This document shows positions 129 through 19,180 of a stretch of 64,000 nt of DNA, one piece after another. This DNA is from Sphaerisporangium album (GTDB taxonomy: Bacteria > Actinomycetota > Actinomycetes > Streptosporangiales > Streptosporangiaceae), in NCBI RefSeq assembly GCF_003323745.1, contig NZ_QOIL01000019.1, forward strand, positions 1-64,000, written 5' to 3'. The notes below the pieces were generated by a model. That model ran no database searches. It saw only the letters and a program-made list of their open reading frames with translations, and was not told where the DNA came from. The translations under genes and the position numbers were made by a program. The first letter of the stretch is position 1; each line of letters begins with the position of its first letter.

Positions 129-689
129 ATGAAGCTGAACCAGTTGGAGGACTGGCACCGGCCCATCCGTGACCTTCTCCGGGAGATCGAGGCCCGCGTT
201 CCGGCCGAACTGAAGGCGTACGTGTTCTACACCCCGTGTGACAACACCGGCATGCTCCCCCACCGGGACGGTTCACACGTGCTGGCCCTACAAGTCGCGG
301 GCGCCAAAGAGTGGCGGATCTACGACTCCCCTGGCGACATCGACGCACGACCCGGCCTTGTGGACCTTGACGTGGACAGCCATTCCCACTCTTTCGTCAT
401 GGAGCCCGGCGATGTGCTCTACCTGCCCCATGGGTATCCGCACGTCGCGTCCGCCCGGGGCGGCACCTCCCTTCACCTGACCCTCACCATCACCGAACCG
501 ACACCGCTGGACCTGATCGAGTCGCTGATGAACACATTCGCCCCCACGGCGACCCCGGCGACGGACCGGATGTCACCCGAGGAGAAGACGGACGTCATGA
601 TCGGGGAGTTGCTGCGGCATCTTCATTCCGTCGAGGCGCGAACCCTGGTGGACACGGCGGTGGCCCGGATGAGGGACAGGACGGAGTAA
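129..689 (+). CDS. JmjC/cupin-4 dioxygenase-like protein, N-terminally truncated
   Basis: The 186-residue product carries a JmjC-type double-stranded beta-helix. His45 and Asp47 (PHRDG) and His105 (GYPHVA) form the HxD...H triad that binds Fe(II) in 2-oxoglutarate oxygenases, so the metal site is intact. Aligned to the next gene it starts at that protein's residue ~90 (KLNQLEDWH versus TLNQVDHWH), so about 90 N-terminal residues are missing. The frame is open upstream only back to base 21, with no good start, and no convincing ribosome-binding site precedes ATG 129. Immediately upstream is an IS5-type transposase tail, which explains the truncation. It heads the operon with the second cupin, peptidase, YcaO and TfuA, where JmjC proteins would hydroxylate a peptide. 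It may be a non-functional remnant or a short translated domain. Confidence 0.65.
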   Translation: MKLNQLEDWHRPIRDLLREIEARVPAELKAYVFYTPCDNTGMLPHRDGSHVLALQVAGAKEWRIYDSPGDIDARPGLVDLDVDSHSHSFVMEPGDVLYLPHGYPHVASARGGTSLHLTLTITEPTPLDLIESLMNTFAPTATPATDRMSPEEKTDVMIGELLRHLHSVEARTLVDTAVARMRDRTE

Positions 690-693
690 GCCG

Positions 694-1476
694 ATGACGA
701 GCGTCATCACCACCATGCCCCTCGCGGACTCCTGGGGCCTTCGCCCGAAGGTGTTCCGCTGGAGCGGCCCGCCGGCGCTGACCCCGGCGGAGATCTGGGA
801 CCTCCTCGACTGTGGGCTTCTGGTCAGCCCATACTTCGAGGTCCGTCCTGAGGTCGCTCCCGCGCCCGCCACGGTGACGCGTATCGTGCAGACAAAGCCC
901 AGACCTGGCTACGCGGATGGCCGGGCCATCCGGGAGCACTACGCCGCGGGCGCCGTCCTCACGCTGAACCAGGTCGATCACTGGCATGCCGGGATCAAGG
1001 CGACGGCCGAGTGGCTGCGAACGGAACTGCGGGCGGACGTACGTTCGTCGGTCGTGCTCCGCCCAAAAGGCACTTCCCCGCCGTCCCCGGCCCTGGATGG
1101 GGCGCACGTGCTGATCCTGCAGGTTACGGGGCACACGGTGTGGCGGCCGGGCGGTGACCCGGTCACGCTCCAGCCGGGGGACGCCCTGTACGTCCCACCC
1201 GACCATCTGCGTCAGACGGCCGATCCGGGTGATGAGTCTTTGCATGTCGCCTTCACCATCCGACAGCCCGGCATCACCGACCTTGCCGAACTCGCCCTTG
1301 CGAACTTTCTGAGCGACTCCAGGGCCGAGGCAATCGCGGCGACGCACCACTTCATGTCTCCCGATGAGAAGGTCGCGTGGTTACGTGCCGAGCTGAGCGC
1401 GTACCTGAAAGAGCTCGACTCCGGCGCGTTGGCAGAGCAGGCGGTGCGGATCGCGCGGCGTGGTGGCCAGGCGTGA
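694..1476 (+). CDS. JmjC/cupin-like protein lacking metal ligands
   Basis: This 260-residue protein is a paralogue of the preceding truncated cupin and has the same fold order, with an N-terminal arm of about 90 residues (WGLRPKVFRWSG) that the neighbour has lost. At the metal site the HxD pair is replaced by Ala133-Leu-Asp135 and the distal His by Arg173. Two of three Fe ligands are therefore gone and it is probably not an oxygenase. A role as a partner or substrate-binding subunit for one of the other JmjC proteins is inferred. ATG 694 lies 4 bases after the upstream stop. The 3' end overlaps the S9 peptidase start by 4 bases, indicating translational coupling. Confidence 0.75.
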   Translation: MTSVITTMPLADSWGLRPKVFRWSGPPALTPAEIWDLLDCGLLVSPYFEVRPEVAPAPATVTRIVQTKPRPGYADGRAIREHYAAGAVLTLNQVDHWHAGIKATAEWLRTELRADVRSSVVLRPKGTSPPSPALDGAHVLILQVTGHTVWRPGGDPVTLQPGDALYVPPDHLRQTADPGDESLHVAFTIRQPGITDLAELALANFLSDSRAEAIAATHHFMSPDEKVAWLRAELSAYLKELDSGALAEQAVRIARRGGQA

Positions 1477-3458
1477 GCGTGATGACAGCCGAAGGCCCGG
1501 GCGTGCGGCTGATCGAACTGACGCTGGGCCAGTCCCGGGTGCTGAGGGCCCATCGGCGGGGTGACGAGCTGATCGTCGAAGCCATGCTCAGGCGTGATGG
1601 GCGGCCCTTCCTGGTACCTTTCGTGCTCTGCTACGCGCCGGCGCCCTCCGGTGGATGGGCATTGCGAAACGCTTACGCGGGTGCCTCGGCTGTGACGACG
1701 CTCGATGACGGTCACTTGATCCTCTCTGACCGGCCTTCCGAGCAGAAGGCCACGCGTGGGCACTCCGGCCGCGCGCTGTGGCGGCATCGGCCGGAGGAGG
1801 GCCTGCGCCTGGTCCTGAGCACACCACGTGACGTCGTCTCCTATTACGCCGTGGCTTCTGTGATCGTTGCCGCCGTCTGGATGCACGCCGAGGCGCGCAC
1901 GACGCGGGAAGACGCGGAACTGCGGGAAGAGCTGGCGCGGAGCGGGCTGAGCGCCACCATGGTGCACGGTGATCTCTGGCCAGAGTCCAGCTATCAGATG
2001 CGGGCCGAAACGCTCCGCCTGGTTCGGATCGACCCTGACCACTCAGACCCCGAAATCCTTCCCCTGCCTCTGCCCTCGCATACGCGGTTGACGGGCGAAC
2101 TCGCCATGACCCCGGACGGTGGGCGCTGCGCGGCGGGCGTGGTGCGCTTCCTCCCCGGCGGCCACCGCCGCCATGGCCTGCTGCTGTTCGCCCCCACCGA
2201 CCCGAGGGGAGCCAGCTCCTTCTGGCACGAAGATGACCTCACCGCGCCCGTGGCCTCGCCAGACGGCGCCTGGTTCGCCTGCACGGCCGAGCGAGTGGCC
2301 GTACCGGGCAGGGGCCCGCGCCAGGGCGTGGTTCTCGTCGCGGCCGACAGCTCCCGGTCGGTCCGGGTCGCCCGGCTCCATCCCGACTGGTTGCAACCGG
2401 CCGCCTGGGCTGCTCCGGACGTTCTGCTCTGCACTGGGGAGCAGAACGGCCTGCGCCGCCTGTGGCGGGTACATCTGGAAGGTGGCCGGCCCGAGCCTGT
2501 CGAGCTGGGAGGCTCTGTCGACGAGGTGACCGTAACGGCGGGTGAGGCGCTCGTGGTGCGCTCGCGTGTCGACCTGCCGTCCGAAGTCGTCGCGCTCCGG
2601 GCGGACCGTCCGGCGTCGGTTCCCGAACCGCTGATCGCACCCGCCTCGGCCGTCGCCCCGGCCGGGCGGGTGGAACGGCTCACCCACCACGCCCCGGACG
2701 GGTCTAAATGGCATAGCCGCCTCTGTCTGCCGGCCCATGATCCGGGACACGCTCTGCCCGTGCTCATCTGGTGCCACGGCGGCCCACTCCTAAGCTGGAC
2801 AAACTGGTCATGGCGATGGAACCCCTGGCCGTTCGTCACGGAGGGATACGCCGTACTGATGCTCGACCCCCCGCTGTCGCTGGGGTACGGGCAGGATGCG
2901 GTGGAACGGGGCTGGGGCCGCTGGACGTCCGGCGTGGCCGCCGTCGCGGCCGGACAGGTCAGGGACGCGCTGAACCATCCCGCCCTGGACGGGAACCGGG
3001 TCGCTGCCATGGGCGGCAGTTTCGGTGGCTATCTCGCGCTGGCCCTGGGCACGCTGCTACCCGAGATCCATCTGATCGCCGCCCACTGCGGCTGGGCCGA
3101 CTTCGCCGCTGTTGCGCGCGCCTGCGACCTGCACTGGCACTGGCTTCGGGAGTACGGCCCAATCGAGACTTCCCCCACGTACCGGAGGGAGAGCCTCGAC
3201 CTGACCCGGATCGATCCCGGCGTGACGGTGTTGTTGTCCCACGGCTGTGGTGACACCCACGTGCCCGTGGGCGAAACCCGGGCGATGTACCGGTCACTCG
3301 AGAGCCGGGGAGTGGACGTGCGGCTCATGCTGCTCCCCGACGAGCGGCACAGCATCGAGAAGCCGGCGAACGTGGCAGCCTGGTACCGGTGGGTGCTGGA
3401 GGCGTGCCGGACCGCCCTCGCACCACGACCGGCGAGGAAGGAGCAGTTCCTCCGGTGA
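1473..3458 (+). CDS. S9 family (prolyl oligopeptidase-type) serine peptidase
   Basis: The 661-residue protein has a beta-propeller-like N-terminal two-thirds and a C-terminal alpha/beta-hydrolase domain. The catalytic triad is visible: Ser516 in GGSFGG, Asp594 in HGCGDTH and His626 in DERHSIE. The family cleaves short peptides, often after Pro or Ala. No signal peptide is present, so it is cytoplasmic. In a YcaO/TfuA operon the natural role is removal of a leader peptide or trimming of the modified core, which is inference. GTG 1473 is chosen because it overlaps the upstream TGA (GTGA). ATG 1482 in the same frame is the alternative. Its own stop overlaps the YcaO start. Confidence 0.88.
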   Translation: MSVMTAEGPGVRLIELTLGQSRVLRAHRRGDELIVEAMLRRDGRPFLVPFVLCYAPAPSGGWALRNAYAGASAVTTLDDGHLILSDRPSEQKATRGHSGRALWRHRPEEGLRLVLSTPRDVVSYYAVASVIVAAVWMHAEARTTREDAELREELARSGLSATMVHGDLWPESSYQMRAETLRLVRIDPDHSDPEILPLPLPSHTRLTGELAMTPDGGRCAAGVVRFLPGGHRRHGLLLFAPTDPRGASSFWHEDDLTAPVASPDGAWFACTAERVAVPGRGPRQGVVLVAADSSRSVRVARLHPDWLQPAAWAAPDVLLCTGEQNGLRRLWRVHLEGGRPEPVELGGSVDEVTVTAGEALVVRSRVDLPSEVVALRADRPASVPEPLIAPASAVAPAGRVERLTHHAPDGSKWHSRLCLPAHDPGHALPVLIWCHGGPLLSWTNWSWRWNPWPFVTEGYAVLMLDPPLSLGYGQDAVERGWGRWTSGVAAVAAGQVRDALNHPALDGNRVAAMGGSFGGYLALALGTLLPEIHLIAAHCGWADFAAVARACDLHWHWLREYGPIETSPTYRRESLDLTRIDPGVTVLLSHGCGDTHVPVGETRAMYRSLESRGVDVRLMLLPDERHSIEKPANVAAWYRWVLEACRTALAPRPARKEQFLR

Positions 3459-4732
3459 CCGACACGACATTGAGCATGCCGGCGAGCGCCGGTAGGAGCC
3501 ACTGGTTCCCGCCGGGAGACCGCGCGCCCGCCACCGCATGCGGCACCTCGCTGCGCACCCGCCCACTCGAGGAGACCGAGGCGCTGGCCACGGCGTTCCT
3601 ATCCCGCTGCGGTATCACCCGAATCTCCGACATCACGGACCTCGATGTCCTCGGCATCCCCGTCTTCCACAGCACCCGTCCCGGCGCGGCTGCCGGGCTC
3701 AACACGGTGACCAGCGGAAAAGGCGTAACCAGGCGCGCGGCGAAGGTGTCGGCGATGATGGAGGCGATCGAGCGTACCTGGTGCGAGCCGCCTACGGGCC
3801 GGCAACCCCGCCGCGCGTCCTACGCGGAGCTCCGCCGGGAGGACATCCCCGTACTCGACCCCCGGCGGCTCATCCTGCGACGCGGTCACACCTGGCACGA
3901 GGACGCGGTCCTCGGCTGGTGGCCGACCCGGGAGTTGTCCTCCGACATCGAAGTCTTGGTCCCGGCGCTCGCGATCTTCACTCCTTATCCCCCAGAATGT
4001 GACATGTTCCGGTCGAACACCATCGGCCTGGCCATCGGCAACAGCCCTCAGGAGGCGCTGTTACACGGCCTGCTCGAGGCCGTCGAGCAGGACTGCACGG
4101 CGTTCGGGGAAACCCTTAAACGGGGCGGCCGCATCCGCCCCGGATCCCTGCCCGACGGGCCCGCGAAACTCGCCGCCCGGTTCCGGGAGATGGGGGTGAA
4201 CGTCCAGCTGTTCGGCTACGTTAACGAAATCGGCGTGCCGACGGTCTTCGCCACCGCCGACGACACCCACGCCGAGGACGGCATGCTCATCAACGGCGGT
4301 GCCGGATGCCACCTCGACCCGGTGGTGGCGGCCACCCGCGCGCTTACCGAGGCGGCCCAGTCCCGGCTGAATGTGATCGGAGGCGCCCGCGAGGACCTCG
4401 ACAGCCAGGCCTACCGCCGCCATGCCTCCTACGAAGCCATGCGGGACATGCTCAGGGTCTGGAGTGACGGCCGACCCGAAATGGACTTCGCCGAACTCCC
4501 CAGTGCCGGCACGGGACGAATCGACGGCGATCTTGACGTGGTACTTTCGGGTCTGCGCGGAATCGGCCTCGACCTGGTCCTTGCCACCGAACTCGCACCG
4601 CACGACCTGCCGTTCTCAGTCACCAAGGTCGTAGTCCCAGGCCTGGAGAACTACCACAACGATCCTCTCAGGTTGGGTGCCCGGTTGCGGCGGGAGATGG
4701 TCCGCGACGGATTGGTGAGGTCCCTGTCGTGA
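3455..4732 (+). CDS. YcaO cyclodehydratase/thioamide synthase
   Basis: This 425-residue YcaO-family enzyme uses ATP to activate backbone amides of a peptide. Visible family blocks are SAMMEAIE (residues 99-106), EALLHGLLEAVEQD in the middle and the downstream ALTEAAQSRL block, which together hold the ATP/Mg-binding acidic residues. The C-terminus ends with a GLENY segment, as in TfuA-paired members. Partnered with the adjacent TfuA it is expected to install thioamides (thioviridamide, thiovarsolin and McrA-type chemistry). Azoline formation cannot be excluded, although no E1-like or dehydrogenase partner is present. GTG 3455 has a good Shine-Dalgarno (GAAGGAG, ending at 3442) and overlaps the upstream stop by 4 bases. 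An upstream in-frame extension to 3389 is rejected because it runs inside the peptidase gene. Confidence 0.9.
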   Translation: MTDTTLSMPASAGRSHWFPPGDRAPATACGTSLRTRPLEETEALATAFLSRCGITRISDITDLDVLGIPVFHSTRPGAAAGLNTVTSGKGVTRRAAKVSAMMEAIERTWCEPPTGRQPRRASYAELRREDIPVLDPRRLILRRGHTWHEDAVLGWWPTRELSSDIEVLVPALAIFTPYPPECDMFRSNTIGLAIGNSPQEALLHGLLEAVEQDCTAFGETLKRGGRIRPGSLPDGPAKLAARFREMGVNVQLFGYVNEIGVPTVFATADDTHAEDGMLINGGAGCHLDPVVAATRALTEAAQSRLNVIGGAREDLDSQAYRRHASYEAMRDMLRVWSDGRPEMDFAELPSAGTGRIDGDLDVVLSGLRGIGLDLVLATELAPHDLPFSVTKVVVPGLENYHNDPLRLGARLRREMVRDGLVRSLS

Positions 4733-5430
4733 CCACATCCCGTGACGTGATTGTCTTCGCCGGCCCCTCCTTCCGCCCCGCTGACCTGGCCCGGCTTCGC
4801 GAGCTGGCGGTGACCATGGGCCGGACGCTGGAGGTCCGGCCTCCCGTCCGCCGCGGGGACCTGCTCGACCTGGCCGACGGTCCGAAACGCACGGCTGTCA
4901 TTATCGACGGCGAGTTCGGCCAGCGGCTCGCCGTCAGCATCGCCGAGGTGCGCGCTGTACTGGCTACCGGCCAACCGCTGACCGGTGCCTCCTCGATGGG
5001 TGCCCTCCGGGCCGTCGAGTGCCGCACGCTCGGCATGACCGGCACCGGCTGGATCTACCGGCAGTACCTGGACGGCACGATCGACTCCGACGGTGACGTC
5101 GCCCTGCTCTACGACCCGGAGGATTTTGCTCCGGTGACGATCCCGCTGGTCAACGTGCGCTGGTTGCTGAAACGCACAGGCCTTCCCGAAGGCCCGGCCG
5201 AGGCGGCCCTCCGGATCGCCCATGGCGTGCACTTCCGGGACCGCCGGCCGTCGGTGCTGCTGCGTGCTTGGGAACGGCACCTTCCCGAGGGGGTCAGCGC
5301 AGTGCTCTTAGCGGAATTGTCCCCTGACCGGCGGGACGCCTGGGACCGCAAGCGCCTCGACGCGCTCGCCGCAGTGCGGATGGCACTGGGACTCCACGGG
5401 ACCGACGCGCGACCTTCGGAGCTGACATGA
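4729..5430 (+). CDS. TfuA-like protein, YcaO partner
   Basis: The 233-residue protein matches the TfuA-like core: VFAGPSF near the N-terminus, AVIIDGEFGQ at about 57-66, GASSMGALRA at 86-95 and GMTGTGWIY at 102-110. TfuA proteins accompany YcaO enzymes in thioamidation, where they are thought to provide or deliver sulfide. This one lacks any extra ThiF- or rhodanese-like domain, so sulfur must come from elsewhere. The GTG start overlaps the YcaO stop (GTGA) and GGTGAGG lies just upstream. The stop overlaps the next ATG, so YcaO, TfuA and cupin are translated as a coupled block. Confidence 0.9.
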   Translation: MTTSRDVIVFAGPSFRPADLARLRELAVTMGRTLEVRPPVRRGDLLDLADGPKRTAVIIDGEFGQRLAVSIAEVRAVLATGQPLTGASSMGALRAVECRTLGMTGTGWIYRQYLDGTIDSDGDVALLYDPEDFAPVTIPLVNVRWLLKRTGLPEGPAEAALRIAHGVHFRDRRPSVLLRAWERHLPEGVSAVLLAELSPDRRDAWDRKRLDALAAVRMALGLHGTDARPSELT

Positions 5431-6590
5431 ACGTGACCCCATCTGGGCGGGTTTTGCCCCTCCTCGGCGACCCGCGGTTGTTCGACAGCTCCTGGCCGGA
5501 CAGGCCGTATCACAGCGCGCGGACCGCAATGGGCCTGCGGGAGGCATTCACCTGGTCGTCCCTCGACGGCCTGCTGAACGACCAGGCCATCCGGCTGCCC
5601 GCTTTCCGCATGGCCAGAGACAACCGGCTGGTTCCCGCGCCATCCATCACCCGATCGGATCGCGCAGAATCAGCTGCGGGCAAAGAGTTGGCCGATCCCG
5701 TTCGGATGACGGCCGAACTGGGGCGGGGCGCCACCCTGGTCCTTCAGGGCGTGCACCGACGATGCCTCCCACTGCGCGATCTCACGCGACGGCTGGCCAC
5801 CGAGATCGGTCACGCGGTCTCCGTCAACGCGTACCTGACTCCGCCGTCCGCACAGGGATTCGGAGCGCATTTCGACCCCACCCATGCCTGGCTGACGCAG
5901 CTCGAAGGCACTAAGAAGTGGCGACTCTGGGAATATGGAAGGCGGCCCGCCACCGATGCTCCCGACCTGGAGTTAGTGCTCTCCGAGGGGGATGTGCTGT
6001 GGATTCCTCGAGGCTGGTGGCACGAGGGAGCCAGTGGAGAACGCCCCAGCCTCCATCTGACCTTCGCCGTGGTCGCCACGACACTGGCCGACGTGCTTGA
6101 GGCGGTGGTGGGAGACCTTGCCCAGCACGCCGCACTCGCCGGAGAACTGCCACCGAAGTCGCTCAGTGACCGCGAACGCGCCCAGACCACCGTGATGGAC
6201 GCCACCATGGAGATCGGCCGCTTGCTCGCGAACCTGGACGTGGAGGCGCTGACGGAGCGCGTCGTCACACGACGTCTGGATCCCTTCGACCCGCTGCCTG
6301 CCCGGCCACTGGCCGAGGTGCTAGGAACCGGCCGGGACGGGACTGTCCACACGCACCCGGAAGGCGTGCTGTACAGCTCCGCCGACGACACGCACGTCCA
6401 CCTGATGACCGCCGACGCGGATCTGGCCATTCCGGCTGAGCTGGCCTCTGACCTCGGCGACCTGCTGACCAGGACCGGGTCCTTCTCCCTGGAGGAGATC
6501 GGGGAGCCGCTCTCCGGGAAAGTGCTCGACCAGCTCGTGGAGGCGCGCCTGGTGTGTTCTGCGGGCTGTCCGGAAGCGAGCGTACGATAG
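5427..6590 (+). CDS. JmjC/cupin-4 (ROXA-like) oxygenase
   Basis: This 387-residue protein has a full JmjC/cupin-4 fold. His148 and Asp150 (GAHFDPTHAW) and His199 (IPRGWWHEG) give an intact HxD...H Fe(II) triad. Trp165 and the adjacent KKW segment fit the family's core. The helical and winged-helix-like C-terminal region (about residues 225-387) is typical of ROXA-like ribosomal oxygenases and of peptide-hydroxylating cupins. In this operon it is the best candidate for hydroxylating a residue of the peptide substrate. The substrate is unknown. ATG 5427 overlaps the TfuA stop (ATGA). It is the only full-length, catalytically complete member of the three cupins here. Confidence 0.85.
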   Translation: MNVTPSGRVLPLLGDPRLFDSSWPDRPYHSARTAMGLREAFTWSSLDGLLNDQAIRLPAFRMARDNRLVPAPSITRSDRAESAAGKELADPVRMTAELGRGATLVLQGVHRRCLPLRDLTRRLATEIGHAVSVNAYLTPPSAQGFGAHFDPTHAWLTQLEGTKKWRLWEYGRRPATDAPDLELVLSEGDVLWIPRGWWHEGASGERPSLHLTFAVVATTLADVLEAVVGDLAQHAALAGELPPKSLSDRERAQTTVMDATMEIGRLLANLDVEALTERVVTRRLDPFDPLPARPLAEVLGTGRDGTVHTHPEGVLYSSADDTHVHLMTADADLAIPAELASDLGDLLTRTGSFSLEEIGEPLSGKVLDQLVEARLVCSAGCPEASVR

Positions 6591-6620
6591 CAGCTCCCGC
6601 TTCCAGATCAGGAGACCCGC

Positions 6621-7133
6621 TTGATTCAAGTGACGTTACGGCCGGTCGTCGAGAGCGATCTGACAGTCTTCGACCGCGAGTTGCACAGCCCTGAGGGTCG
6701 GGGGGACTTCCAGTGGTTCGGTTACCGGTCCGGCCTACATGACCGGCGGGCGTTGGAGGCGAACGGCCTGCTCACTGACGACGGCGGCACGCTCACCGTC
6801 TGCGCCGATGGCGAAGTGGCAGGGCGGGTGCAGTGGGGCAAGGCCATCTGGGGTCCCCCGGCCACGTCGTGGTGCTGGACCATCGGCATCCTCATCCGAC
6901 CGGCCCTCCAGGGCCGGGGCATCGGTACGGAAGCGCAACGGGGGCTCGCCAGGTACCTGTTCGACCACAGCTGGGCCAACCGGATCGAAGCCTCCACCGA
7001 CATCCGGAACATCGCCGAACGGAAAGCCTTGGAGAAGGCGGGTTTCACGCGTGAGGGTGTCCTTCGGGGTGCCCTCTGGCGTGGGGGGCAATGGCATGAC
7101 CAGGTGCTCTACTCACTCCTCCGCGCCGACTGA
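6621..7133 (+). CDS. GNAT family N-acetyltransferase (RimJ-like)
   Basis: The 170-residue protein is a single GNAT domain. The acetyl-CoA-binding block reads LQGRGIGTEA, and the C-terminal part (NIAERKALEKAGFTREGVLRG) is typical of the RimJ/RimL branch that acetylates amino termini or small amines. The start is a TTG at 6621 preceded by CAGGAGA at 6609-6615. It follows the cupin by 30 bases and ends shortly before a strong hairpin, so it is probably the last gene of the operon. It could acetylate the peptide product or give self-protection, but nothing in the sequence decides this. Confidence 0.8.
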   Translation: MIQVTLRPVVESDLTVFDRELHSPEGRGDFQWFGYRSGLHDRRALEANGLLTDDGGTLTVCADGEVAGRVQWGKAIWGPPATSWCWTIGILIRPALQGRGIGTEAQRGLARYLFDHSWANRIEASTDIRNIAERKALEKAGFTREGVLRGALWRGGQWHDQVLYSLLRAD

Positions 7134-7360: not shown

Positions 7361-7558
7361 TCAGGTGTTGAGGGTGCCGGTCTTGAGTCCGGTCAGGAAC
7401 GCGGACCACTCGGCCGGGGGGAGGAGCACCGGCGTGGTCGGGGTCTTGCTGTCTCTGACCGCGATGAGGCCTGGGAGGTTCGCCGCGACCTCGACACAGT
7501 TGCCGTTGTGGGTGCTATAGGTGCTCTTGCGCCACTTTGCGCCCTGGAGGTCACCCAC
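7361..7558 (-). CDS. DUF397 family protein
   Basis: The 65-residue protein has the DUF397 signature: W-R-K-S-T-Y-S near the N-terminus, NCVEVA, VRDSK and a closing WSAFL. Such small proteins are encoded next to WhiJ-like XRE regulators in actinomycetes and act as their antagonists or partners (AbaA/BldB-associated systems). The start lies inside the 3' end of the XRE gene (8-base overlap), so the two are co-translated. Confidence 0.92.
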   Translation of the reverse strand: MGDLQGAKWRKSTYSTHNGNCVEVAANLPGLIAVRDSKTPTTPVLLPPAEWSAFLTGLKTGTLNT

Positions 7559-8372
7559 TTTGGTTCACCACTTCCTGTATGAGGCGGAGTGACTGTTTGA
7601 ATGGTAGGACTTCAGCGCGAACCGCGTCATACGTGGCGGTGAGTTCCGCGAGGATCTGCCGGTTCTGTATCGTCCGCCCGTTCGGTTGCGCGTCCGTATA
7701 GGCGGCATAGGCGGTCCCGTTCCGCTCGGCGATGATGAACCCGCCCGCCAACCCGCAGTGCTCTCCGGCGTCGTAGGGCACGATCTGGATGGTCACGTTG
7801 GGATGCTGGGCGATCTCCAGCAGGAGCCTCAGCTGTTCGCGCATGACCGCCGCGCTCCCTATGCGGCGCCGGATCACGGCCTCGTCCATGAGGAAGGTGA
7901 CCGTCGGGGGCCTGTCCCTGTGCAGAAGCGACTGTCGTCGCATGCGGCTCGTCAGCCGGTCCTCGACTTCCTCCGGAGTGATGCCGGGGGCCGTTGCGAT
8001 CAGCGCACGTGCGTACGCCTCGGCTTGGAGAAGGCCGGGGATGAGGGTGGGCTCCCAACTGCGGAGCGCTTCGGCGTCTTCCTCCTCTTCGAGCCAGGGC
8101 CTGAGGTGCTCACTGGCCTTGTCCCACGTCATGGCGATGTAGAGCCGCACCATGGTGCCGTCCAGCCCGAGAGCCTTGTCGCACGCCCTGGCGAAGTCGT
8201 CGGTCGGGGGACGTCGGAGGGTTTCGACCATGGCGACCAGCGACTCCGAGAAGCCCATGCGCGAGGCCAGTGCCCGCTGGGAGAGCCTGGCCGCCTCGCG
8301 GTACCGCCGCAGCTCGGCGGCGAAGAAGGTGCGCGGGGATTCGCTTGGGTCCGTGTCCTTGATGGGGGGCAT
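7551..8372 (-). CDS. XRE helix-turn-helix regulator with DUF5753 (WhiJ-like)
   Basis: This 273-residue protein has an N-terminal XRE-type HTH (LSQRALASRMGFSESLVAMVE, residues about 29-49) and a C-terminal DUF5753 domain with the typical LIPGLLQTEAYARA-type block, read here as TLIPGLLQAEAYARA. These regulators control development or antibiotic production with a DUF397 partner. The gene is followed with overlap by DUF397 and is divergent from an anti-sigma-like ATPase 170 bases away, the usual three-gene arrangement. The promoters of both transcripts must lie in 8373-8543. Confidence 0.93.
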   Translation of the reverse strand: MPPIKDTDPSESPRTFFAAELRRYREAARLSQRALASRMGFSESLVAMVETLRRPPTDDFARACDKALGLDGTMVRLYIAMTWDKASEHLRPWLEEEEDAEALRSWEPTLIPGLLQAEAYARALIATAPGITPEEVEDRLTSRMRRQSLLHRDRPPTVTFLMDEAVIRRRIGSAAVMREQLRLLLEIAQHPNVTIQIVPYDAGEHCGLAGGFIIAERNGTAYAAYTDAQPNGRTIQNRQILAELTATYDAVRAEVLPFKQSLRLIQEVVNQSG

Positions 8373-8543
8373 ATCGCTCCTTTCTATCCGAATTTCGACG
8401 ATATTGAAGTGCTCACCGGCTCCTCACAGAAATGTGACCCTATGTGCGGGGCAATCGCTCCCGATCGTAGCTCTCCGTCGCCACTCTGATAGGGCGAAGT
8501 CTCCAACAAGCGCGTTCCTCGCGTCGGACGAAAAGGCGAGCGC

Positions 8544-9152
8544 ATGCGAATGGGAAGATTGCTGGGCGTCATCGAGTTGGCCGGCGAGCCCAGGTCGGCC
8601 GGAATGGCCCGTGAGTTCGTACGGGAGAAACTGGGCGACGATCATCCGGCGCTGGACACCGTGACACTCCTGGTGTCCGAGGTGGTCACCAACGCGGTGG
8701 TCCATTCGAATTCCAGGAATGGCGGAAAAGTCACCCTGGCGCTCGCCGACTGCCACGACTTCGTTCACGCCGACGTCATCGACGCGGGCGGTGAAGAGGT
8801 TCCACGGGTGCGTGACGACGAATCAGGCGAGGGTGGGCGGGGTCTCCACATCGTCCAAGCGCTCGCCTCTGGCTGGGGTGTACGCCAGGACCTCACCAGC
8901 AGGACCGTGTGGTTTCAGGTGGCGTACGCGTACGAGCGGGGGGCCCATCCGGTCTTGCCCCGGCAGCGCGAATCCCCGGACGGCGGCGAGACCGCCTTAC
9001 GCCGGACCGCCAGGCGCGCGGCCCCGGCGGTCACCGAAAGCCGTGCTCCGGAAAGGGTTCATTCTCGGCGTTTCGCGGGGCGCTGGAGCCGTGCCCGGGA
9101 CGGATTCGGCGGGGAATCCGGCTCACCCGGCGTCGATCCGTTCCTGTACTAA
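8544..9152 (+). CDS. ATP-binding anti-sigma-factor-like protein (HATPase_c)
   Basis: The N-terminal ~135 residues form a GHKL ATPase of the SpoIIAB/RsbW type, with the N-box VSEVVTNAVVHS and the glycine box GEGGRGLHIVQ. The last ~65 residues are Arg/Pro-rich with no recognised domain. Proteins of this type phosphorylate or bind anti-anti-sigma factors and pair with XRE/DUF397 modules. No sigma or antagonist gene is adjacent. ATG 8544 is preceded by AAAAGGCGAG. ATG 8550 is an alternative. Confidence 0.88.
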   Translation: MRMGRLLGVIELAGEPRSAGMAREFVREKLGDDHPALDTVTLLVSEVVTNAVVHSNSRNGGKVTLALADCHDFVHADVIDAGGEEVPRVRDDESGEGGRGLHIVQALASGWGVRQDLTSRTVWFQVAYAYERGAHPVLPRQRESPDGGETALRRTARRAAPAVTESRAPERVHSRRFAGRWSRARDGFGGESGSPGVDPFLY

Positions 9153-9371: not shown

Positions 9372-12300
9372 CTACGCCGGGGTTGCCGCCTCATGGTTGG
9401 GGGTGGCTATTCGTATTATGGCGCCGAGCCGACGCACCGTCGGCTGCTCGACGAGAGCGGTGACCGGGAGTCGCACGCCGAGGGCCGACCCGATCCGGCT
9501 GGCGAGCTGGATGGCGATCAGCGAGTGACCGCCCAGCTCGAAGAAGTCGTCGTCGATGCCGACCGTTTCCAGACCGAGGACGGCGGCCCAGATATCGGCG
9601 ATCGCGGCTTCCGTCTCGTCGGCCGGTTCGGCGTAGGGGGTCATGAGGTCGGGTCGTGGATACCGCTCGCGGTCGTCGTCCACTGTGCCGGGCGCGGCGA
9701 GGTCGCCGGTGACCCACTGGGCGATCCGGTCGGCCAGCGGACCGGTGGAGATCACGGCGTGTCCCACATGGTCGACGGCGGCGAGCGCCCGCTCGAACAC
9801 GGCGATGCCCTCCTCGGGCGTCATCGCGAAGGTGCCGGCCGTGGGGCCTTGCGCCAGCCGGGCAGGGTCGATGGCCCAGGTGTCCCAATCCACGGTGATC
9901 CATGGTGTGCCGCGGAGCCGTGCGGTCCGGACGTAGGCGTCGAGGGCGGCGTTCGCCGCCGAGTAGGGGCCGAGCGCGATGCCGCCGAGAACAGCGGACA
10001 GCGACGACAGGGTGATGAGCCGGTGCGGCCGCCGGCCGGCCGGCAGTATCGAAAGGGCCGCCTCGAGCGCGAGGAACCCGGCCGCCTTCGCCCGTAGGTG
10101 CGCTTGGCAGGCGGCCCGGTCCATCCGGTGCGCCAGGTCGAAGAACTGCTCGTTCTGGACGCCGGCGCCGTGGACCACCACGTCAACGCCGCCGAAGACA
10201 CTGTCCGCGGCCCGCACCACCTCTCGCATCGCCTCGGCGTCGGCTGCGTCGGCCGAGACGGCCAGCACCTGAGCGCCCCGGGCCTCCAGGTCGAGGACGT
10301 TCCTGATATGCCGGGCCGTCCGGTCGGCGCCCTCGGGGACGGCGGCGAGGAAGGCCGGCCACTCCTCCCGCGGGGGCAGCGGGCTCCGGACGGTGAGCAC
10401 CAGCCGGCAGTCGCGGCCCGCGGCCAAGTGCCGGGCCAGCACGAGGCCGACGTCACCGAGGCCGCCGGTGATGAGCACGGTGTCGCCGCTGCGGATCGGG
10501 CCGGTCTCCGGGGCGGCCAGTGGCAGGGACCGGTAGCCGCGCAGCCAGGCCTCGCCGGCCCGGACAGCCACCGGGCCCTCGAAGGGGGCGATCATGGCCG
10601 CGAGCGTCCGGTCCACATCTGCCGGAGCGGTGACATCGCCCACGTCGACGGTGCGGCAGCGCAGGTGTGGGTTCTCCTGGCTCAGGCTGGGTGCCAGGCC
10701 GACCAGGGTCGCATGCTCGGGATCCGTCAGATCGGGGCCGACCACGCCGACCGCGCCGCCGGTGAGCAGGATCAGTTCGGTCGGTTCGGCACCGGGGTCG
10801 GTGGCCAGGGCGGCGGCCAGCGCGAGGGCGGAGTAGAAGCCGTACTCCTGCGCCGCCTCGAAGGTGTCGATGGCATCGGCGGCGGATCCGGTGCCGCGTA
10901 ACGCGAAGCCATGAATGATCGTCCTCGGGGGGACCTGGCTGCGGAGCAGGTCCTCGTGATCGCTCGGCTCGCCGGGCCGGACGGCGAACTCGCCGGAGTC
11001 GGTGGCGTCGAACGTCGCCCCCGGCCGTACGGTGGTCACCTCCGCTCCGGCGTCGCGGAGCCGTTGGACCAAGGCATCTCCGCGCGGGTCGGCAGTGAAC
11101 ACCAGCCATGGGCCGGCGGCTCGCAGCCGGGCGTCCAGGTCGGTGAGCGGCAGCGGGTGCTCGAACCAGGTCGGCAGGTAGGTCCACCGCGACGGATCGG
11201 CGCACCGGCCTGTGGCCTGGGCGTCCCGGTCTGCCGGGGCGGCCTTGACCCAGTAGTGGCGGCGCTGGAAGGGGTAGGTGGGCAGCTCGACGCGGCGGCC
11301 CATCCCATGGTGTAGCGCCGCCCAATCGATCGTCGCGCCGGCCAGCCACAGCCGGGCGAGCGTGCCCGCCAGCCAATCCACGGCCGGTGCGCCGTCCGGG
11401 GAGAGCGCGACCTCCACGGCGTCCGGCGTCGAGCCGATCCGGATACCGAGCCGCGTCAGGCCGTCCGTCACGGCCGCGGCCGCCCCCACCCCGGTGGGCG
11501 GCACGCCGGCCACGGCTGCCCCGAGCAACTCACCGGCGGCCGAGACAAGCTCGGCGCACCAGTCGGCGGGCGGATCGGCCGGGGTCACCAGGTGAAGCCG
11601 CGGGTCGCGGCGGTCGGTCCGGCCGTCGATCCAGCGGGCCGGATCGGCGAGTGCCGCGACGGCGTCGTCGAGATCGGCGCACACGACCGCCCGGCGCAGT
11701 GCGAAGTAGCCGCGGGACTCCTGCAGAGTGAAGGCGACGTCGGCCAGGTCGGTGTCCTGGTGCGCGGTCAGGTGGTCGCGCAGCCTGGCGGTCAGCTCGT
11801 CCAGCGCGGCCGGGTCGGCGGCCGACATGGTGAGCAGGTGGGGTCCGGTCCGGGGGACTCCGGCCTGCCGGGGCGGTGCCTCCTGCAGGACCACGTGTGC
11901 GTTCGTCCCACCAAGGCCGAAGGAGCTGACCCCGGCGCGCCGCGGATCCGTCCCGGCCGGCCACGGCTGATCGCCGGCCAGCACGGTGAACCTGTCACCG
12001 GCGGCGGCGAGCACTGGGTTCGGCTTGGTGTGGTGCGGCGTGCCGGGCAGCACGCGGTGTTCCAGCGCGAGCGTCGCCCGGATCAGTCCGGCGACACCGG
12101 CGGCGCGGTCCAGGTGGCCGAGCATCGGTTTGATGGTGCCGAGTACGCACGGGGTCCGCGGATCCGGGCCGAACACCCGGTTCATCGCGGCCAGCTCGAT
12201 CGAGTCGCCGAGCATGGTTCCGGTCGCGTGGCACTCCACGTAGCCGACGGAGTCGGGGTTGACGTCGGCCGCCGCCAGCGCCGACTCGATCACTCGTGCC

Positions 12301-13169
12301 TGGCCGTCGACGCCGGGCGCCGTGTAGCCGACGCGGTCCCTGCCGTCGTTGGAGACCGCCGACCCGAGGATCACCGCATGAATCACGTCTCCGTCGGCCA
12401 GTGCGTCGTTCATCCGCTTGAGGGCGACGACTCCCACACCCGGGGCCATGACCGTGCCGTTCGCCTTGGCGTCGAAGCTGCGCACGATCCCGTCCGGCGA
12501 CAGGATGCCGCCCTCGGTGTAGAGGTAGCCGGCGGGCTGGGGAAGCGGCAGAAAGGCGCCGCCCGCCAGGGCCATGTCGCAGTCGTAGGTGAGCAGGCCC
12601 TGGCAGGCCAGGTGCACGGCCACCAGAGAGGTGGAGCAGAACGACTGCACGGTCATCGAAGGGCCGGTCAGGCCGAGCTTGTAGGACACGAACGAGGTGA
12701 GCGAGTCGCGTTCGTTGCCCACGGCGAGCAGCAGGACGCCGCCGGGCTCGCCGATCAGGCCGCTCACGTTCTGGACCATGTAGTCGGGGAACGCGCAGCC
12801 GCCGTACACCCCGACCTGGCCCGGCACGTCGACGGGGCAGTAGCCGGCTGCCTCAAGGGCCTCCCACGAGCATTCCAGGAACAGCCGGTGCTGGGGATCC
12901 ATCGTCTCGGCCTCGCGCGGGTTCAGGCCGAACATGGTCGCGTCGAACCGGTCGATGTCCGGGACCGCGCCGCCTACGCGGACATAGCCCGGGTCTCCAC
13001 TCAGCTCCGACGGCACGCCGGCGTCGGCGAGCTCGTCATGGGTGATCTCGCGCAGGCCGGGGACTCCGGTGCGCAGGTTGTGCCACAGCTCCGCGACGGT
13101 CGCCGCGCCGGGGAACCGGCCGGACATGCCGATCAGTGCGACAGCCGTATCGAACGCGGACTCACTCAC
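9372..13169 (-). CDS. Type I PKS module KS-(AT core absent)-KR-ACP
   Basis: The 1265-residue protein has a KS at about 8-430 with active-site Cys178 (SFCSTSL) and both catalytic His blocks (ECHATGT and the GHLDRAAG block). Next comes a shortened linker at about 430-640 where an acyltransferase would normally sit. No GHSxGE nucleophile or HAFH-type motif occurs there, only a post-AT segment ending PTYPFQRRHYW. A KR follows at about 890-1150 (TGGLGDVG; Ser/Tyr/Asn in LSSLSAV and YSAANA; Lys in RAKAAG), then an ACP with Ser1216 in LGGHSL. There is no thioesterase. The extender unit must come from an AT in trans or by another route. GTG 13169 is preceded by GGAGGG. It is the last gene of the operon and probably performs the final extension. 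Confidence 0.92.
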   Translation of the reverse strand: MSESAFDTAVALIGMSGRFPGAATVAELWHNLRTGVPGLREITHDELADAGVPSELSGDPGYVRVGGAVPDIDRFDATMFGLNPREAETMDPQHRLFLECSWEALEAAGYCPVDVPGQVGVYGGCAFPDYMVQNVSGLIGEPGGVLLLAVGNERDSLTSFVSYKLGLTGPSMTVQSFCSTSLVAVHLACQGLLTYDCDMALAGGAFLPLPQPAGYLYTEGGILSPDGIVRSFDAKANGTVMAPGVGVVALKRMNDALADGDVIHAVILGSAVSNDGRDRVGYTAPGVDGQARVIESALAAADVNPDSVGYVECHATGTMLGDSIELAAMNRVFGPDPRTPCVLGTIKPMLGHLDRAAGVAGLIRATLALEHRVLPGTPHHTKPNPVLAAAGDRFTVLAGDQPWPAGTDPRRAGVSSFGLGGTNAHVVLQEAPPRQAGVPRTGPHLLTMSAADPAALDELTARLRDHLTAHQDTDLADVAFTLQESRGYFALRRAVVCADLDDAVAALADPARWIDGRTDRRDPRLHLVTPADPPADWCAELVSAAGELLGAAVAGVPPTGVGAAAAVTDGLTRLGIRIGSTPDAVEVALSPDGAPAVDWLAGTLARLWLAGATIDWAALHHGMGRRVELPTYPFQRRHYWVKAAPADRDAQATGRCADPSRWTYLPTWFEHPLPLTDLDARLRAAGPWLVFTADPRGDALVQRLRDAGAEVTTVRPGATFDATDSGEFAVRPGEPSDHEDLLRSQVPPRTIIHGFALRGTGSAADAIDTFEAAQEYGFYSALALAAALATDPGAEPTELILLTGGAVGVVGPDLTDPEHATLVGLAPSLSQENPHLRCRTVDVGDVTAPADVDRTLAAMIAPFEGPVAVRAGEAWLRGYRSLPLAAPETGPIRSGDTVLITGGLGDVGLVLARHLAAGRDCRLVLTVRSPLPPREEWPAFLAAVPEGADRTARHIRNVLDLEARGAQVLAVSADAADAEAMREVVRAADSVFGGVDVVVHGAGVQNEQFFDLAHRMDRAACQAHLRAKAAGFLALEAALSILPAGRRPHRLITLSSLSAVLGGIALGPYSAANAALDAYVRTARLRGTPWITVDWDTWAIDPARLAQGPTAGTFAMTPEEGIAVFERALAAVDHVGHAVISTGPLADRIAQWVTGDLAAPGTVDDDRERYPRPDLMTPYAEPADETEAAIADIWAAVLGLETVGIDDDFFELGGHSLIAIQLASRIGSALGVRLPVTALVEQPTVRRLGAIIRIATPNHEAATPA

Positions 13170-13211
13170 AATTACCCTCCGGGAAATGCTGGTCAGCCTG
13201 AGCCGCCGGCG

Positions 13212-13967
13212 TCACATCAGTCGGCCGCGGCCGAAGCCATGGGCAAGCCGGTAGGTGGCGAATGTGCCGGCCACCAGTGCGATCGCCAGGCATACCAAGG
13301 CGGGTCGGACCAGGTGCGCGGGTTGGCCACGCAGTGCCGCTTGGAACATGTCAACCCCCCAGTAGCCGGGGGAGAACGGGGCCACGTGGCGGGCCCAGCT
13401 CGGCATCAGGGAGACAGGCAGAAGGGCGCCGCCAAAGGCACTGACCATCATGGTCCCGAGATCGGAGACCATCCCCATCTCCCCGCGGCTGCGCACGATC
13501 GTCGCGAGCGCGGCACCAATGGCCAGCAGCATGACGCCCCAGATCAGGATGGCCGGCACGACGTAGCCGATCGTGTCCGGGAGAGGGATGCCGGTCAGCG
13601 CGCAGCCGAAGAGGACCACGACGAGCTGCTGGGTGATGAGGATCGCCATGATGGGCAGCGTTTTTCCCAGCAGGAGCTCGGCGCGGTGCGCCCGGCTGAC
13701 CCGCAGCTGGTCCCAGGTGCGCCACTCCCGCTCGATGAGGATCGAGTTGCCGACGATCGCCAGTGTGAAAATCGAGAACATCACGAGTGGTCCGCTGATG
13801 ATCTGGTAATTGGCGCCCTGGACGGCCTTCTCGTACAACGGCTTGAACACCGTCATGAGGATTATCGGCAGCACGATGTAACTGATCATTTGGCCCGGGT
13901 CGCGCAGCCGCACAAGCACGTTGTGCCGAACCAGGACGCCGATGCGGCGCAGGGATTCAGTGAGCAT
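13212..13967 (-). CDS. ABC-2 type transporter permease
   Basis: The 251-residue integral membrane protein has about six hydrophobic segments (for example MISYIVLPIILMTV near the N-terminus and LVCLAIALVAGTF near the C-terminus) and the ABC-2 family layout. It overlaps the upstream ATPase gene by 11 bases. Together they form a drug/lipid exporter of the DrrA/DrrB kind, most likely for export of the polyketide product or self-resistance. Confidence 0.9.
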   Translation of the reverse strand: MLTESLRRIGVLVRHNVLVRLRDPGQMISYIVLPIILMTVFKPLYEKAVQGANYQIISGPLVMFSIFTLAIVGNSILIEREWRTWDQLRVSRAHRAELLLGKTLPIMAILITQQLVVVLFGCALTGIPLPDTIGYVVPAILIWGVMLLAIGAALATIVRSRGEMGMVSDLGTMMVSAFGGALLPVSLMPSWARHVAPFSPGYWGVDMFQAALRGQPAHLVRPALVCLAIALVAGTFATYRLAHGFGRGRLM

Positions 13968-14790
13968 AGGAAACCGTCAGCGATCGGTAGAGGTCGTCGA
14001 GTGAGGGCTTGCGCAGGTCGACGGCGATCGGCGGCCGCCCGGCGTCGCGGAGGATCTCCAGGAGGGTCCCCGTCGGGTCGGTGGTCGACACGTGGACCTC
14101 GGCGTCGGCGAACGTGACCAGGACCTCGCCGGGCAGCCCGTCGAGCAGGTCGGCCGCGCTGCCGCGGGCGATGACCGCGCCGGCCCTGGCCACGGCGATC
14201 GTGGCCGCGAGCTCGGTGAGCTCGGGCAGATAATGCGTGGTGTAGATGACGGCGGCCCCCTCACTGGCGCGCTGCTTCACCACGTCCAGCAGCGCCTGCC
14301 GGGTCTCGGGGTCGGCGCCCGCGGTGGGTTCGTCCATCAACAGCAGCGACGGCCGGTTGATCAGCGCCACCGCGGCCTGAGTGCGGCGCTGCTGGCCGCC
14401 GGACAGGACGCCGACCGGCCGGTCCATGAAGGAGGTCAGCTTCAGGCTTTCAGCCAGATCGTCGATCTCGGCCCGCAGCGCCGTCCTGCGCAACCCGGCG
14501 AGCCCGCCGAACAGCCGGAGATGCTCGCGTACCGTCGTGGACAAGTAGAGGCCTATCTGCTGCGGGCAGACGCCGGTGATGCCCCGGACCCGTGCGGGAT
14601 CCTGCCCGTTCACCGTGACCCGGCCGCCGTCCGGCCGGATCAGCCCGGTGGCCGTCTCGATGAACGTCGTCTTGCCTGCGCCGTTATGGCCGACGAGACC
14701 TACGATCTCCCCTGCGGCGACCTCGAGGCTGAACCCGGCAAGCGCCTGGACCCGTCCGTAGCGCTTTGTTAGATTCTCGGCTTTCAACAT
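13957..14790 (-). CDS. ABC transporter ATP-binding protein (DrrA-type)
   Basis: The 277-residue ATPase has Walker A (GHNGAGKTT), a Q-loop (CPQQIG), the signature LSGGQQRR, Walker B (LLLMDEPTAG) and a switch His (TTHYLPE). The C-terminal extension of about 60 residues resembles DrrA-type subunits. ATG 14790 has GGAAG 6 bases upstream. Longer upstream frames lack a better site. A 172-base gap separates it from the thioesterase gene, so a second promoter is possible there. Confidence 0.9.
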   Translation of the reverse strand: MLKAENLTKRYGRVQALAGFSLEVAAGEIVGLVGHNGAGKTTFIETATGLIRPDGGRVTVNGQDPARVRGITGVCPQQIGLYLSTTVREHLRLFGGLAGLRRTALRAEIDDLAESLKLTSFMDRPVGVLSGGQQRRTQAAVALINRPSLLLMDEPTAGADPETRQALLDVVKQRASEGAAVIYTTHYLPELTELAATIAVARAGAVIARGSAADLLDGLPGEVLVTFADAEVHVSTTDPTGTLLEILRDAGRPPIAVDLRKPSLDDLYRSLTVSYAH

Positions 14791-14962
14791 AGATCTTCCG
14801 CGGTGAGCGCGACCCTTCCGATGGGCGGTCATTGTCGGGTAATGCGGTTTTGCCAAGATCGGTGATTCAGTCCTTCGCCTGCCGCAGCCCGCCGGTAGAG
14901 GGGCGCGGCGTCGTCGCGAAACCGAGCGGCCTCGTGCGGTCACTCGAAGATCAGCGGCGGGA

Positions 14963-15721
14963 TCAGACCGGCAAGCTGAGCGCCTCGCAGAGGATCTGCC
15001 GGGTGCGCTCCCACTGTTCCAGAACGGCGAAGTGCCCGCCGGGCAGCGTGTGCGCGGTGAACGGTCCGTTGGTCTGCGCCCGCCAGCCGCGCATCGAGGC
15101 GCCGTCGGCGCGCGGATCGGCGGTGGCGCAGACAGCGGTGATCGGCACGTCCAGCGGCGGCAGCTCGGTATATCTGTACGACTCCTTGATCTCGAAGTCC
15201 GCCCGGAACGGCGGCAGGATCATCGCCAGCATGTCCGGGTCGGCCAGGAGCCACTCCGGCGTCCCGCCCAGCCTGCGCAGCATGCCGACGATCTGGGCGT
15301 CGGTCGCCCCGCCGACCCGCGGCCCATCGTCGAACGGGACCTGCGGCGCCGCGCAGCCGGACACGACGAGATGCGTCGCCGCCGGGCCGCCGAGGCGGCG
15401 GATCTCGCGCAGTGCCTCGAAGCCGACCAGCGCCCCGAGGCTGTGCCCGTAGACGGCGTAAGGGCCGTCCGCGGTGGCCAGGATCATCTCGGCGAGCTCG
15501 GCCGCCGACTCGGCCATCCGCCGGTGCGGCACCTCCCTGAGCCGCCCCTCCCGGCCCGCGGGCTGCACCGGGCAGACCGCGACTCCCGGCAGCCGGTCCA
15601 CCCACGACCGGTAGGTGGAGGCGGCCCCGCCGGCGTGCGGCAGGCAGTACAGCCGGAGCGCCCCGGACCGGCGGCCGAACGGCAGCCGCCGGTCGATCGC
15701 CGCCGACTCCAGCGGGCTCAC
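14963..15721 (-). CDS. Type II thioesterase (alpha/beta hydrolase)
   Basis: This 252-residue discrete thioesterase is of the RifR/GrsT family. The nucleophile is Ser94 in YGHSLGA, and the C-terminal His lies in PGGHFAVLE. Such enzymes normally clear stalled acyl groups from carrier proteins. Here neither PKS carries a TE domain, so it might also release the finished chain (inference). GTG 15721 overlaps the FkbH-like stop (GTGA), so it is translationally coupled to the extender-unit genes. Confidence 0.9.
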   Translation of the reverse strand: MSPLESAAIDRRLPFGRRSGALRLYCLPHAGGAASTYRSWVDRLPGVAVCPVQPAGREGRLREVPHRRMAESAAELAEMILATADGPYAVYGHSLGALVGFEALREIRRLGGPAATHLVVSGCAAPQVPFDDGPRVGGATDAQIVGMLRRLGGTPEWLLADPDMLAMILPPFRADFEIKESYRYTELPPLDVPITAVCATADPRADGASMRGWRAQTNGPFTAHTLPGGHFAVLEQWERTRQILCEALSLPV

Positions 15722-17954: not shown

Positions 17955-18211
17955 GGAGCTATCCCCACCGCGTCGGCCGACCGCCGGCCGATCAGGTCGG
18001 CCATCGCCAACGCGGTCCTGAAGTTGTCGATCCGCAGCTCCTCGTTCGGGATCGTGATCTCGAACGTCTTCTCCAGGAACATCACCAGCTCCATCGCGAA
18101 CAGCGAGTTGACGTAGCCGAGCGAGAAGATGTCCTCGGACTCGGTGACCTCGGCCTGCGGGAACCGGCTGACGATGAACGCCAGGACCTCGGACGTGACG
18201 TCACGTGACAT
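17951..18211 (-). CDS. FkbJ-like discrete acyl carrier protein
   Basis: The 86-residue ACP has its phosphopantetheine site at Ser36 (GYVNSLFAMELV), with acidic residues following. It is the carrier on which the glyceryl group is loaded and oxidised to the malonyl-type extender. ATG 18211 is chosen because GAGGAG lies just upstream and the product has normal ACP length. A longer in-frame extension upstream is unlike any carrier protein. Confidence 0.9.
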   Translation of the reverse strand: MSRDVTSEVLAFIVSRFPQAEVTESEDIFSLGYVNSLFAMELVMFLEKTFEITIPNEELRIDNFRTALAMADLIGRRSADAVGIAP

Positions 18212-18282
18212 GATCAGATCTCCTCGTATTCCCCGGAGCTCCTCCGGGCGCCCTGGTGGCGATTCGATCGGCGGCAAGCCGG

Positions 18283-19149: not shown

Positions 19150-19180
19150 GCCGGTGTCCCTTCGGTCGCCAGTTCGTCGG

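Follow-up and report, generated by a model that had tools for sequence, protein, structure and literature searches.

A YcaO-TfuA operon at a contig edge of Sphaerisporangium album is probably the 3′ half of a rare RiPP cluster whose candidate precursor gene lies on a second contig

The stretch of DNA analyzed in this study, referred to as the window, consists of bases 1-64000 of contig NZ_QOIL01000019.1 (C11) of Sphaerisporangium album, and hence begins at a contig edge. Near its left end, at 129..7133, is an operon that combines YcaO and TfuA genes with the genes for a serine peptidase and several JmjC-like cupins. Our results suggest that the window probably holds the 3′ half of a rare cluster for a ribosomally synthesized and post-translationally modified peptide (RiPP), that the 5′ half lies on contig C36 of the same genome, and that the product would be a thioamidated and probably hydroxylated peptide exported by a transporter of the major facilitator superfamily (MFS). 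As far as literature searches go, such a cluster is known in kind and new in composition. A first-pass annotation, made from the letters of the window, had proposed that the substrate might be encoded to the left of the window or be unlinked, and we have indeed found a candidate for it on C36.

Family searches of the window identified all of the gene families claimed for 129..7133, in the order cupin 1 (5′-truncated), cupin 2, S9 peptidase, YcaO, TfuA, cupin 3 and GNAT acetyltransferase, all on the plus strand. Cupin 1, a JmjC_2 protein, is represented only by its 3′ part (129..689), which encodes 186 residues including the metal triad. It is followed by the JmjC_2-like cupin 2 (694..1476), by a Peptidase_S9 serine peptidase with a GTG start at 1473 that is the candidate leader peptidase (1473..3458), by YcaO (3455..4732, 236 bits) and TfuA (4729..5430, 99 bits), and by cupin 3 (5427..6590), a JmjC_2 protein with a C-terminal extension. 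The tight 4-base coupling that had been described for these genes holds for four out of five junctions within the cupin 1 to cupin 3 stretch, namely cupin 2/S9, S9/YcaO, YcaO/TfuA and TfuA/cupin 3, each of which is a GTGA or ATGA overlap, but not for cupin 1 and cupin 2, which are separated by 4 nt, nor for cupin 3 and the GNAT gene, which are separated by 30 nt. The statement that no precursor is recognizable in the window was correct; a precursor of the kind described below is absent from it, as the 64 kb contain no match that would encode INEA, the motif in which these candidates end.

On C36, the gene order is aldo-keto reductase (AKR), MFS transporter, the N-terminal and C-terminal halves of a split transketolase (TkN and TkC), the precursor, and the start of cupin 1. 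In genome searches with the proteins of L016, a related operon from Streptomyces sp. NBC_00249, the N-terminal 110 residues of its cupin 1 matched C36:124-390 on the minus strand with 60% identity, the 5′ part of cupin 1 lying at about C36:128-429 on that strand, and its TkC matched C36:796-1686, also on the minus strand, with 72% identity. Between the cupin 1 start and TkC, at C36:534-659 on the same strand, lies an open reading frame (ORF) for a 41-residue peptide, MSVIRKLQATDEEQLIAAADDELSELSDHSRPMLVNNINEA.

A scan of an 84,980-species genome collection with a YcaO pattern yielded 44 loci, six of which encode a YcaO that is 68-73% identical to that of the window; they belong to Streptomyces beijiangensis (L015), four Streptomyces sp. 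(L016-L019) and Streptantibioticus silvisoli (L020). Another YcaO, 61% identical, was found in our genome samples (G177), and with the operon of S. album itself the known operons number eight. The first-pass annotation had considered the case that a small peptide gene is missing from all orthologous operons; the opposite was found, with a precursor gene directly upstream of cupin 1 in seven of the eight operons, the C36 copy included, which lends weight to its suggestion of a RiPP. The systematic search for small conserved genes covered the stretch upstream of cupin 1. Six of the precursors are 41 residues long and the one from G177 has 54. All seven end in an invariant INEA and have an arginine at position -11, followed at -10 by proline (six) or alanine (one); none contains a cysteine, the N-terminal part is acidic, and each gene has a purine-rich stretch just before its start codon. 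In all 15 pairwise comparisons of the six 41-residue genes, the rate of nonsynonymous substitution (dN) is below the synonymous rate (dS), for example 0.26/0.50 for S. album and L016 and 0.02/0.38 for L016 and L019.

A profile of the precursor was built from the operons' own copies, so its hits in them are by construction and the informative part is its absence elsewhere. In a class sample of 394 genomes, strong hits were confined to the two genomes with a YcaO orthologue (3e-23 and 3e-25), the next matches being eight at E 0.016-0.097, and in a 392-genome sample of the Streptomyces-containing genus of G473 they fell in the same three genomes as YcaO (1e-21 or better), the next match being one at E 0.0068; no strong hit was obtained in the other 392 and 389 genomes, respectively. 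The cluster is rare and patchily distributed. At E 1e-80 the YcaO was found in at least two of 341 genomes of the family of S. album, at least two of the 394 of the class sample, at least three of the 392 of the Streptomyces-containing genus, and one of 54 in the genus of G177, where the first three counts are lower bounds because four to five first-look candidates per genome were scored, and where the samples overlap one another and the 84,980-species scan. At E 1e-40, two of 11 genomes of the genus of S. album gave a match, its own and a distant one (38% identity, E 5.5e-43) with one internal stop. Only distant YcaOs, the best at 40%, were present in 26 plasmid records.

The content of the operons was judged within the available locus DNA, and absences from L015, L017 and L020, which end at contig edges, are weak. 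YcaO and TfuA are present in all eight operons, as is the S9 peptidase, although in L018 as a fragment; cupin 1, cupin 2, the precursor and TkC are each present in every operon except L018. TkN is found in six, being missing from L018 and from L017, whose contig begins some 50 bases ahead of TkC. Cupin 3 is also present in six, divergent in G177 and interrupted by about 1.4 kb in L018. The MFS gene is present in the operons of S. album, L015, L016, L019 and L020. An AKR gene occurs in S. album, L015 and L020, and an LLM-type F420 oxidoreductase gene in L016, L018 (partial), L019 and G177; the two never occur together, and L017 shows neither. L018:8900-14500 is a decaying copy in Streptomyces sp. 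AC1-42W. In the other 38 YcaO loci, where uneven flanks make absences weak as well, there was no match at E 1e-6 to the cupins, S9 peptidase, transketolase, AKR or MFS proteins, so that the cupin, S9 and transketolase genes mark this type of cluster; a TfuA match is present in 24 of these loci.

The reason that no precursor was seen in the window is that it sits on C36, beyond an insertion sequence which cuts cupin 1. Bases 1-127 of the window recur unchanged at the ends of five contigs (C11, C37, C15, C7 and C6), and the sequences diverge after GGCTC, which marks these bases as the end of a repeated insertion sequence. They constitute its right end on the plus strand, with the C-terminal end of a transposase-like frame as judged by eye, and the inner end coincides with the contig edge. 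Ends of the insertion sequence are present at both broken edges of cupin 1, on C11 and on C36. Full-length orthologues of cupin 1 from six relatives have 282-290 residues; the frame in the window has a stop upstream and begins at the JmjC core, while the cupin frame on C36 runs into GAGCCCATTTCA, which by eye mirrors the window end TGAAATAGGCTC at 11 of 12 bases. By the same reading, CAT stands on the cupin side of both broken ends as an apparent 3-bp target duplication. The cluster is split by the insertion sequence in the assembly, and the same is probably true of the genome itself.

Cupins 1 and 3 look like active oxygenases, and to this extent the description of the operon as one with JmjC-like oxygenases was right. 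Both have the PF08007 domain and the HxD...H iron ligands, and in alignments inspected by eye the HxD and the distal histidine are kept in 7/7 sequences of cupin 1 and 5/5 of cupin 3. L016 cupin 1 matches NO66, MINA and the L16 arginine hydroxylase, and cupin 3 of S. album matches the histidyl hydroxylases NO66 and MINA as well as other hydroxylases. The description does not extend to cupin 2, which passes for the domain (33.6 bits) but has an incomplete metal triad; none of seven aligned sequences keeps all three ligands by eye, the one from L019 retaining the distal histidine without the acidic ligand and the one from L015 retaining HxD without the distal histidine. Cupin 2 is likely to be a non-catalytic partner.

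Backbone thioamidation appears to be the likeliest chemistry of the YcaO-TfuA pair, a view which we base on the presence of TfuA and on precursors that lack cysteine and have few serines or threonines. The nearest solved relative of the YcaO in the PDB is MJ1094, and TfuA has one relative there. The best-scoring specific NCBIfam models are the McrA thioamidation proteins, although the scores fall below both of their cut-offs, those of TIGR03266 (269 against 365 bits) and NF033432 (131 against 235 bits); the general YcaO-type model TIGR00702 is passed, with 188 bits against a cut-off of 76. The two genes adjoin one another, as in thioamidated RiPP loci, and the TfuA stretch GASSMG(A/V)LRAVEC is conserved in six of six aligned sequences. 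An alternate possibility is that the YcaO makes an azoline or an amidine rather than a thioamide, as YcaO enzymes also perform such reactions, and an amidine RiPP has reportedly been described (PMC8442711). The last 15 residues of the seven precursors contain 2, 1, 2, 2, 2, 3 and 0 serines or threonines, so that six of the seven may offer a residue for such a reaction. However, the last nine residues contain a serine in the L020 precursor only, the absence of cysteine from all seven disfavors thiazole formation, the SagD-type model TIGR03604 gives 116 bits against a cut-off of 219, and both the adjacent TfuA and the McrA models, even below their cut-offs, point to a thioamide. We therefore consider an azoline or amidine product to be unlikely. 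For TfuA itself, hydrolysis of ThiS thiocarboxylate with a Ser-Lys pair has been described (PMC13185837).

The identity of the substrate has to be weighed as well. The 41-residue gene could encode a regulator or a small partner protein, with the true substrate encoded elsewhere, and in favor of this the peptide matches no known precursor family. On the other hand, it resembles a precursor in its length and position as well as in its acidic N-terminus and invariant C-terminus, and we regard this explanation as quite improbable. The same two kinds of enzymes act on neighboring residues of uL16 in E. coli, where YcaO forms the thioamide of Met82 and RoxA hydroxylates Arg81 (PMC13063428), so the YcaO-TfuA pair and the JmjC cupins could in principle modify a host protein, as the first-pass annotation had also allowed. 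Given a conserved, linked and co-occurring small gene, the rarity and patchiness of the cluster, and the linkage of transporter and peptidase genes, that alternative now seems very improbable. A separate concern is whether the cluster is dead or dying in the genome of S. album, the insertion sequence having cut cupin 1 and parted the upstream genes from the rest so that no product is made; the family could still be a RiPP cluster in other genomes. The split of cupin 1 with its apparent CAT duplication argues for such a loss, as does the existence of a second, decaying copy in L018. Against it, the 3′ part of cupin 1 retains the catalytic core as well as an in-frame ATG at 129, the remaining genes of the operon are open and promoters of the element could drive the 3′ half, and the stretch between C11 and C36 is an assembly gap. 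The insertion may have disabled the cluster in this strain, and we would put the chances at about even.

Several observations weigh against a thioamidated and hydroxylated RiPP made from this precursor. Cupin 3 was not found in two of the eight operons (L015 and L020). L018 lacks the precursor, although it also lacks cupins 1 and 2, the transketolase genes and the 5′ end of the S9 gene. The G177 precursor shares only 37% identity with that of S. album. Of the seven copies, two were scanned against NCBIfam, three against PHROGs and five against Pfam, and there was no meaningful match. Serine or threonine near the C-terminus of most precursors makes oxazoline formation possible, the S9 peptidase is nearest to acylaminoacyl-releasing enzymes and dipeptidyl peptidases rather than to prolyl oligopeptidases, and the proposed chemistry rests on sequence. 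A leader-binding (RRE) domain was not demonstrated in the cluster proteins; bacterial homologues of PF08007-fused RRE proteins occur in RiPP-like contexts (PMC12710340).

Taken as a RiPP pathway, the cluster might operate as follows. The acidic N-terminal part of the precursor would serve as the leader, YcaO would activate a backbone amide with ATP and TfuA would supply the sulfide, so that a thioamide forms in the C-terminal core. Residues of the core would also be hydroxylated by cupins 1 and 3, with cupin 2 as their non-catalytic partner. The S9 peptidase, whose Ser-Asp-His triad was recognized by eye and is kept in four of four aligned sequences, would release the core, perhaps by cutting after Pro/Ala -10 to yield a nine-residue product [M/F][V/L]xxxINEA for export by the MFS protein; cleavage after proline is only a guess in view of the relatives of the enzyme. 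The transketolase pair and a carbonyl reductase, either the AKR or the F420-type LLM protein, would probably add or supply a two-carbon ketol-derived unit, which is the least certain step. We infer the product chemistry, the cleavage site and the role of the transketolase from the sequences.

The split transketolase has the thiamine diphosphate (ThDP)-binding domain PF00456 (94.8 bits) and the pyrimidine-binding domain PF02779 (94.9 bits), while the C-terminal domain PF02780 scores 23.6 bits, under the cut-off of 25.9; the nearest PDB entry to TkC is a split transketolase. The interchange of AKR and LLM genes between operons suggests that there is a carbonyl to be reduced, which fits the product of a transketolase. 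One could imagine that the ThDP enzyme acts on the peptide or on an attached group, such that a carbonyl carried by the peptide or created by an oxygenase takes up a two-carbon ketol unit and the AKR or F420-LLM protein then reduces this unit, on a thioamidated and hydroxylated nonapeptide, but this is a tentative proposal that we are inclined to doubt, and a literature search found no transketolase chemistry in a RiPP. We also considered whether the transketolase could be a self-resistance copy; with regard to this, the pair is divergent, sharing 33% identity with the next transketolase-like site of the genome, and lies inside the operon. Among the papers listed, a literature search on this question pointed only to the glycolic-acid transketolases described below.

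Thioamitides have a cysteine-containing core for the S-vinyl macrocycle, and in this respect the seven cysteine-free precursors differ from them. The TfuA-YcaO thioamidated RiPPs of Actinobacteria, such as the thiovarsolins and thioviridamide-like thioamitides (PMC6511847, PMC8120280), resemble the present cluster in their adjacent ycaO and tfuA genes and short precursor gene, whereas here the precursors have neither cysteine nor repeats and the genes include a split transketolase and two JmjC_2 oxygenases that look active. Searching the main texts of these two papers for the words cupin, JmjC and transketolase gave no match. The key to Figure 5 of PMC8120280 names Peptidase S9 and phytanoyl-CoA dioxygenase, and the L015 operon has both an S9 gene and a PhyH-type oxygenase gene, so a member may already be drawn in that figure; the family may also be among the 74 peptide networks of PMC6511847. 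The McrA-glycine thioamidation YcaO and TfuA of methanogens are close by the models and structure cited above, with archaeal loci 34-40% identical, but both curated cut-offs are missed and the setting here is RiPP-like. Compared with YcaO and RoxA on uL16, the kinds of enzymes are the same, while the likely substrate here is a linked 41-residue peptide, YcaO is accompanied by TfuA, and the genes form one operon. The biphenomycin cluster shares a JmjC-type oxygenase, BipG, as a RiPP tailoring enzyme, but its operon as listed in PMC12707348 has MNIO and radical SAM proteins and no YcaO-TfuA. A sponge microbiome survey mentions cupin-4 beside NHLP-type clusters. Two-gene ThDP transketolases of natural-product clusters (SclQ2/Q3, QncN/L, NapB/D and DinU/S) make glycolic-acid or hydroxyethyl units with a carrier protein (PMC6335953, PMC7570522); those clusters have an acyl carrier protein, and scl and qnc also a lipoyl/acyltransferase part, none of which is among the genes scanned here.

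Membership of the GNAT gene (6621..7133) in the cluster is doubtful, since its product shares only 26-27% identity with the GNATs next to L016 and L020, which share 55% with each other. Just downstream of the operon, at 7361-9152, the window contains a DUF5753/helix-turn-helix regulator gene that overlaps a short ORF, together with a divergent gene for an anti-sigma-like ATPase; this trio is common in actinobacteria. By eye, the large ORFs at 9372-28849 resemble a type I polyketide synthase region that includes ABC transporter genes, and nothing ties this region to the YcaO operon. The same genome has other YcaO loci. C62 has a second TfuA and YcaO pair (L078:7011-9538, minus strand), and a radical SAM/SPASM protein is encoded about 5 kb from it (L078:621-2081). 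On C61, a YcaO and a JmjC_2 protein lie less than 2 kb apart (L075:8650-11795, minus strand) with an alpha/beta hydrolase nearby (L075:4540-6051); no TfuA match is present in the 20 kb of this locus, which is possibly another YcaO-oxygenase peptide locus. C60 encodes a YcaO and a nitroreductase-like protein, along with a small ORF whose end contains Ser/Cys and which looks by eye like an azole peptide precursor (L077:4593-10145, minus strand), and C20 has a YcaO with a lantibiotic-dehydratase C-terminal protein in an azole or thiopeptide-like cluster (L076:3164-10733, minus strand).

The analysis illustrates that a RiPP operon can seem to have no precursor when a contig ends in an insertion sequence. 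For this thioamide-peptide family, it provides a specific short precursor along with a nearly complete set of genes. YcaO and JmjC_2 enzymes, the kinds that modify neighboring residues of uL16 in E. coli, would here be paired on a seemingly dedicated peptide, and the transketolase genes, if they do act as proposed, may represent the first case of transketolase chemistry in a RiPP.

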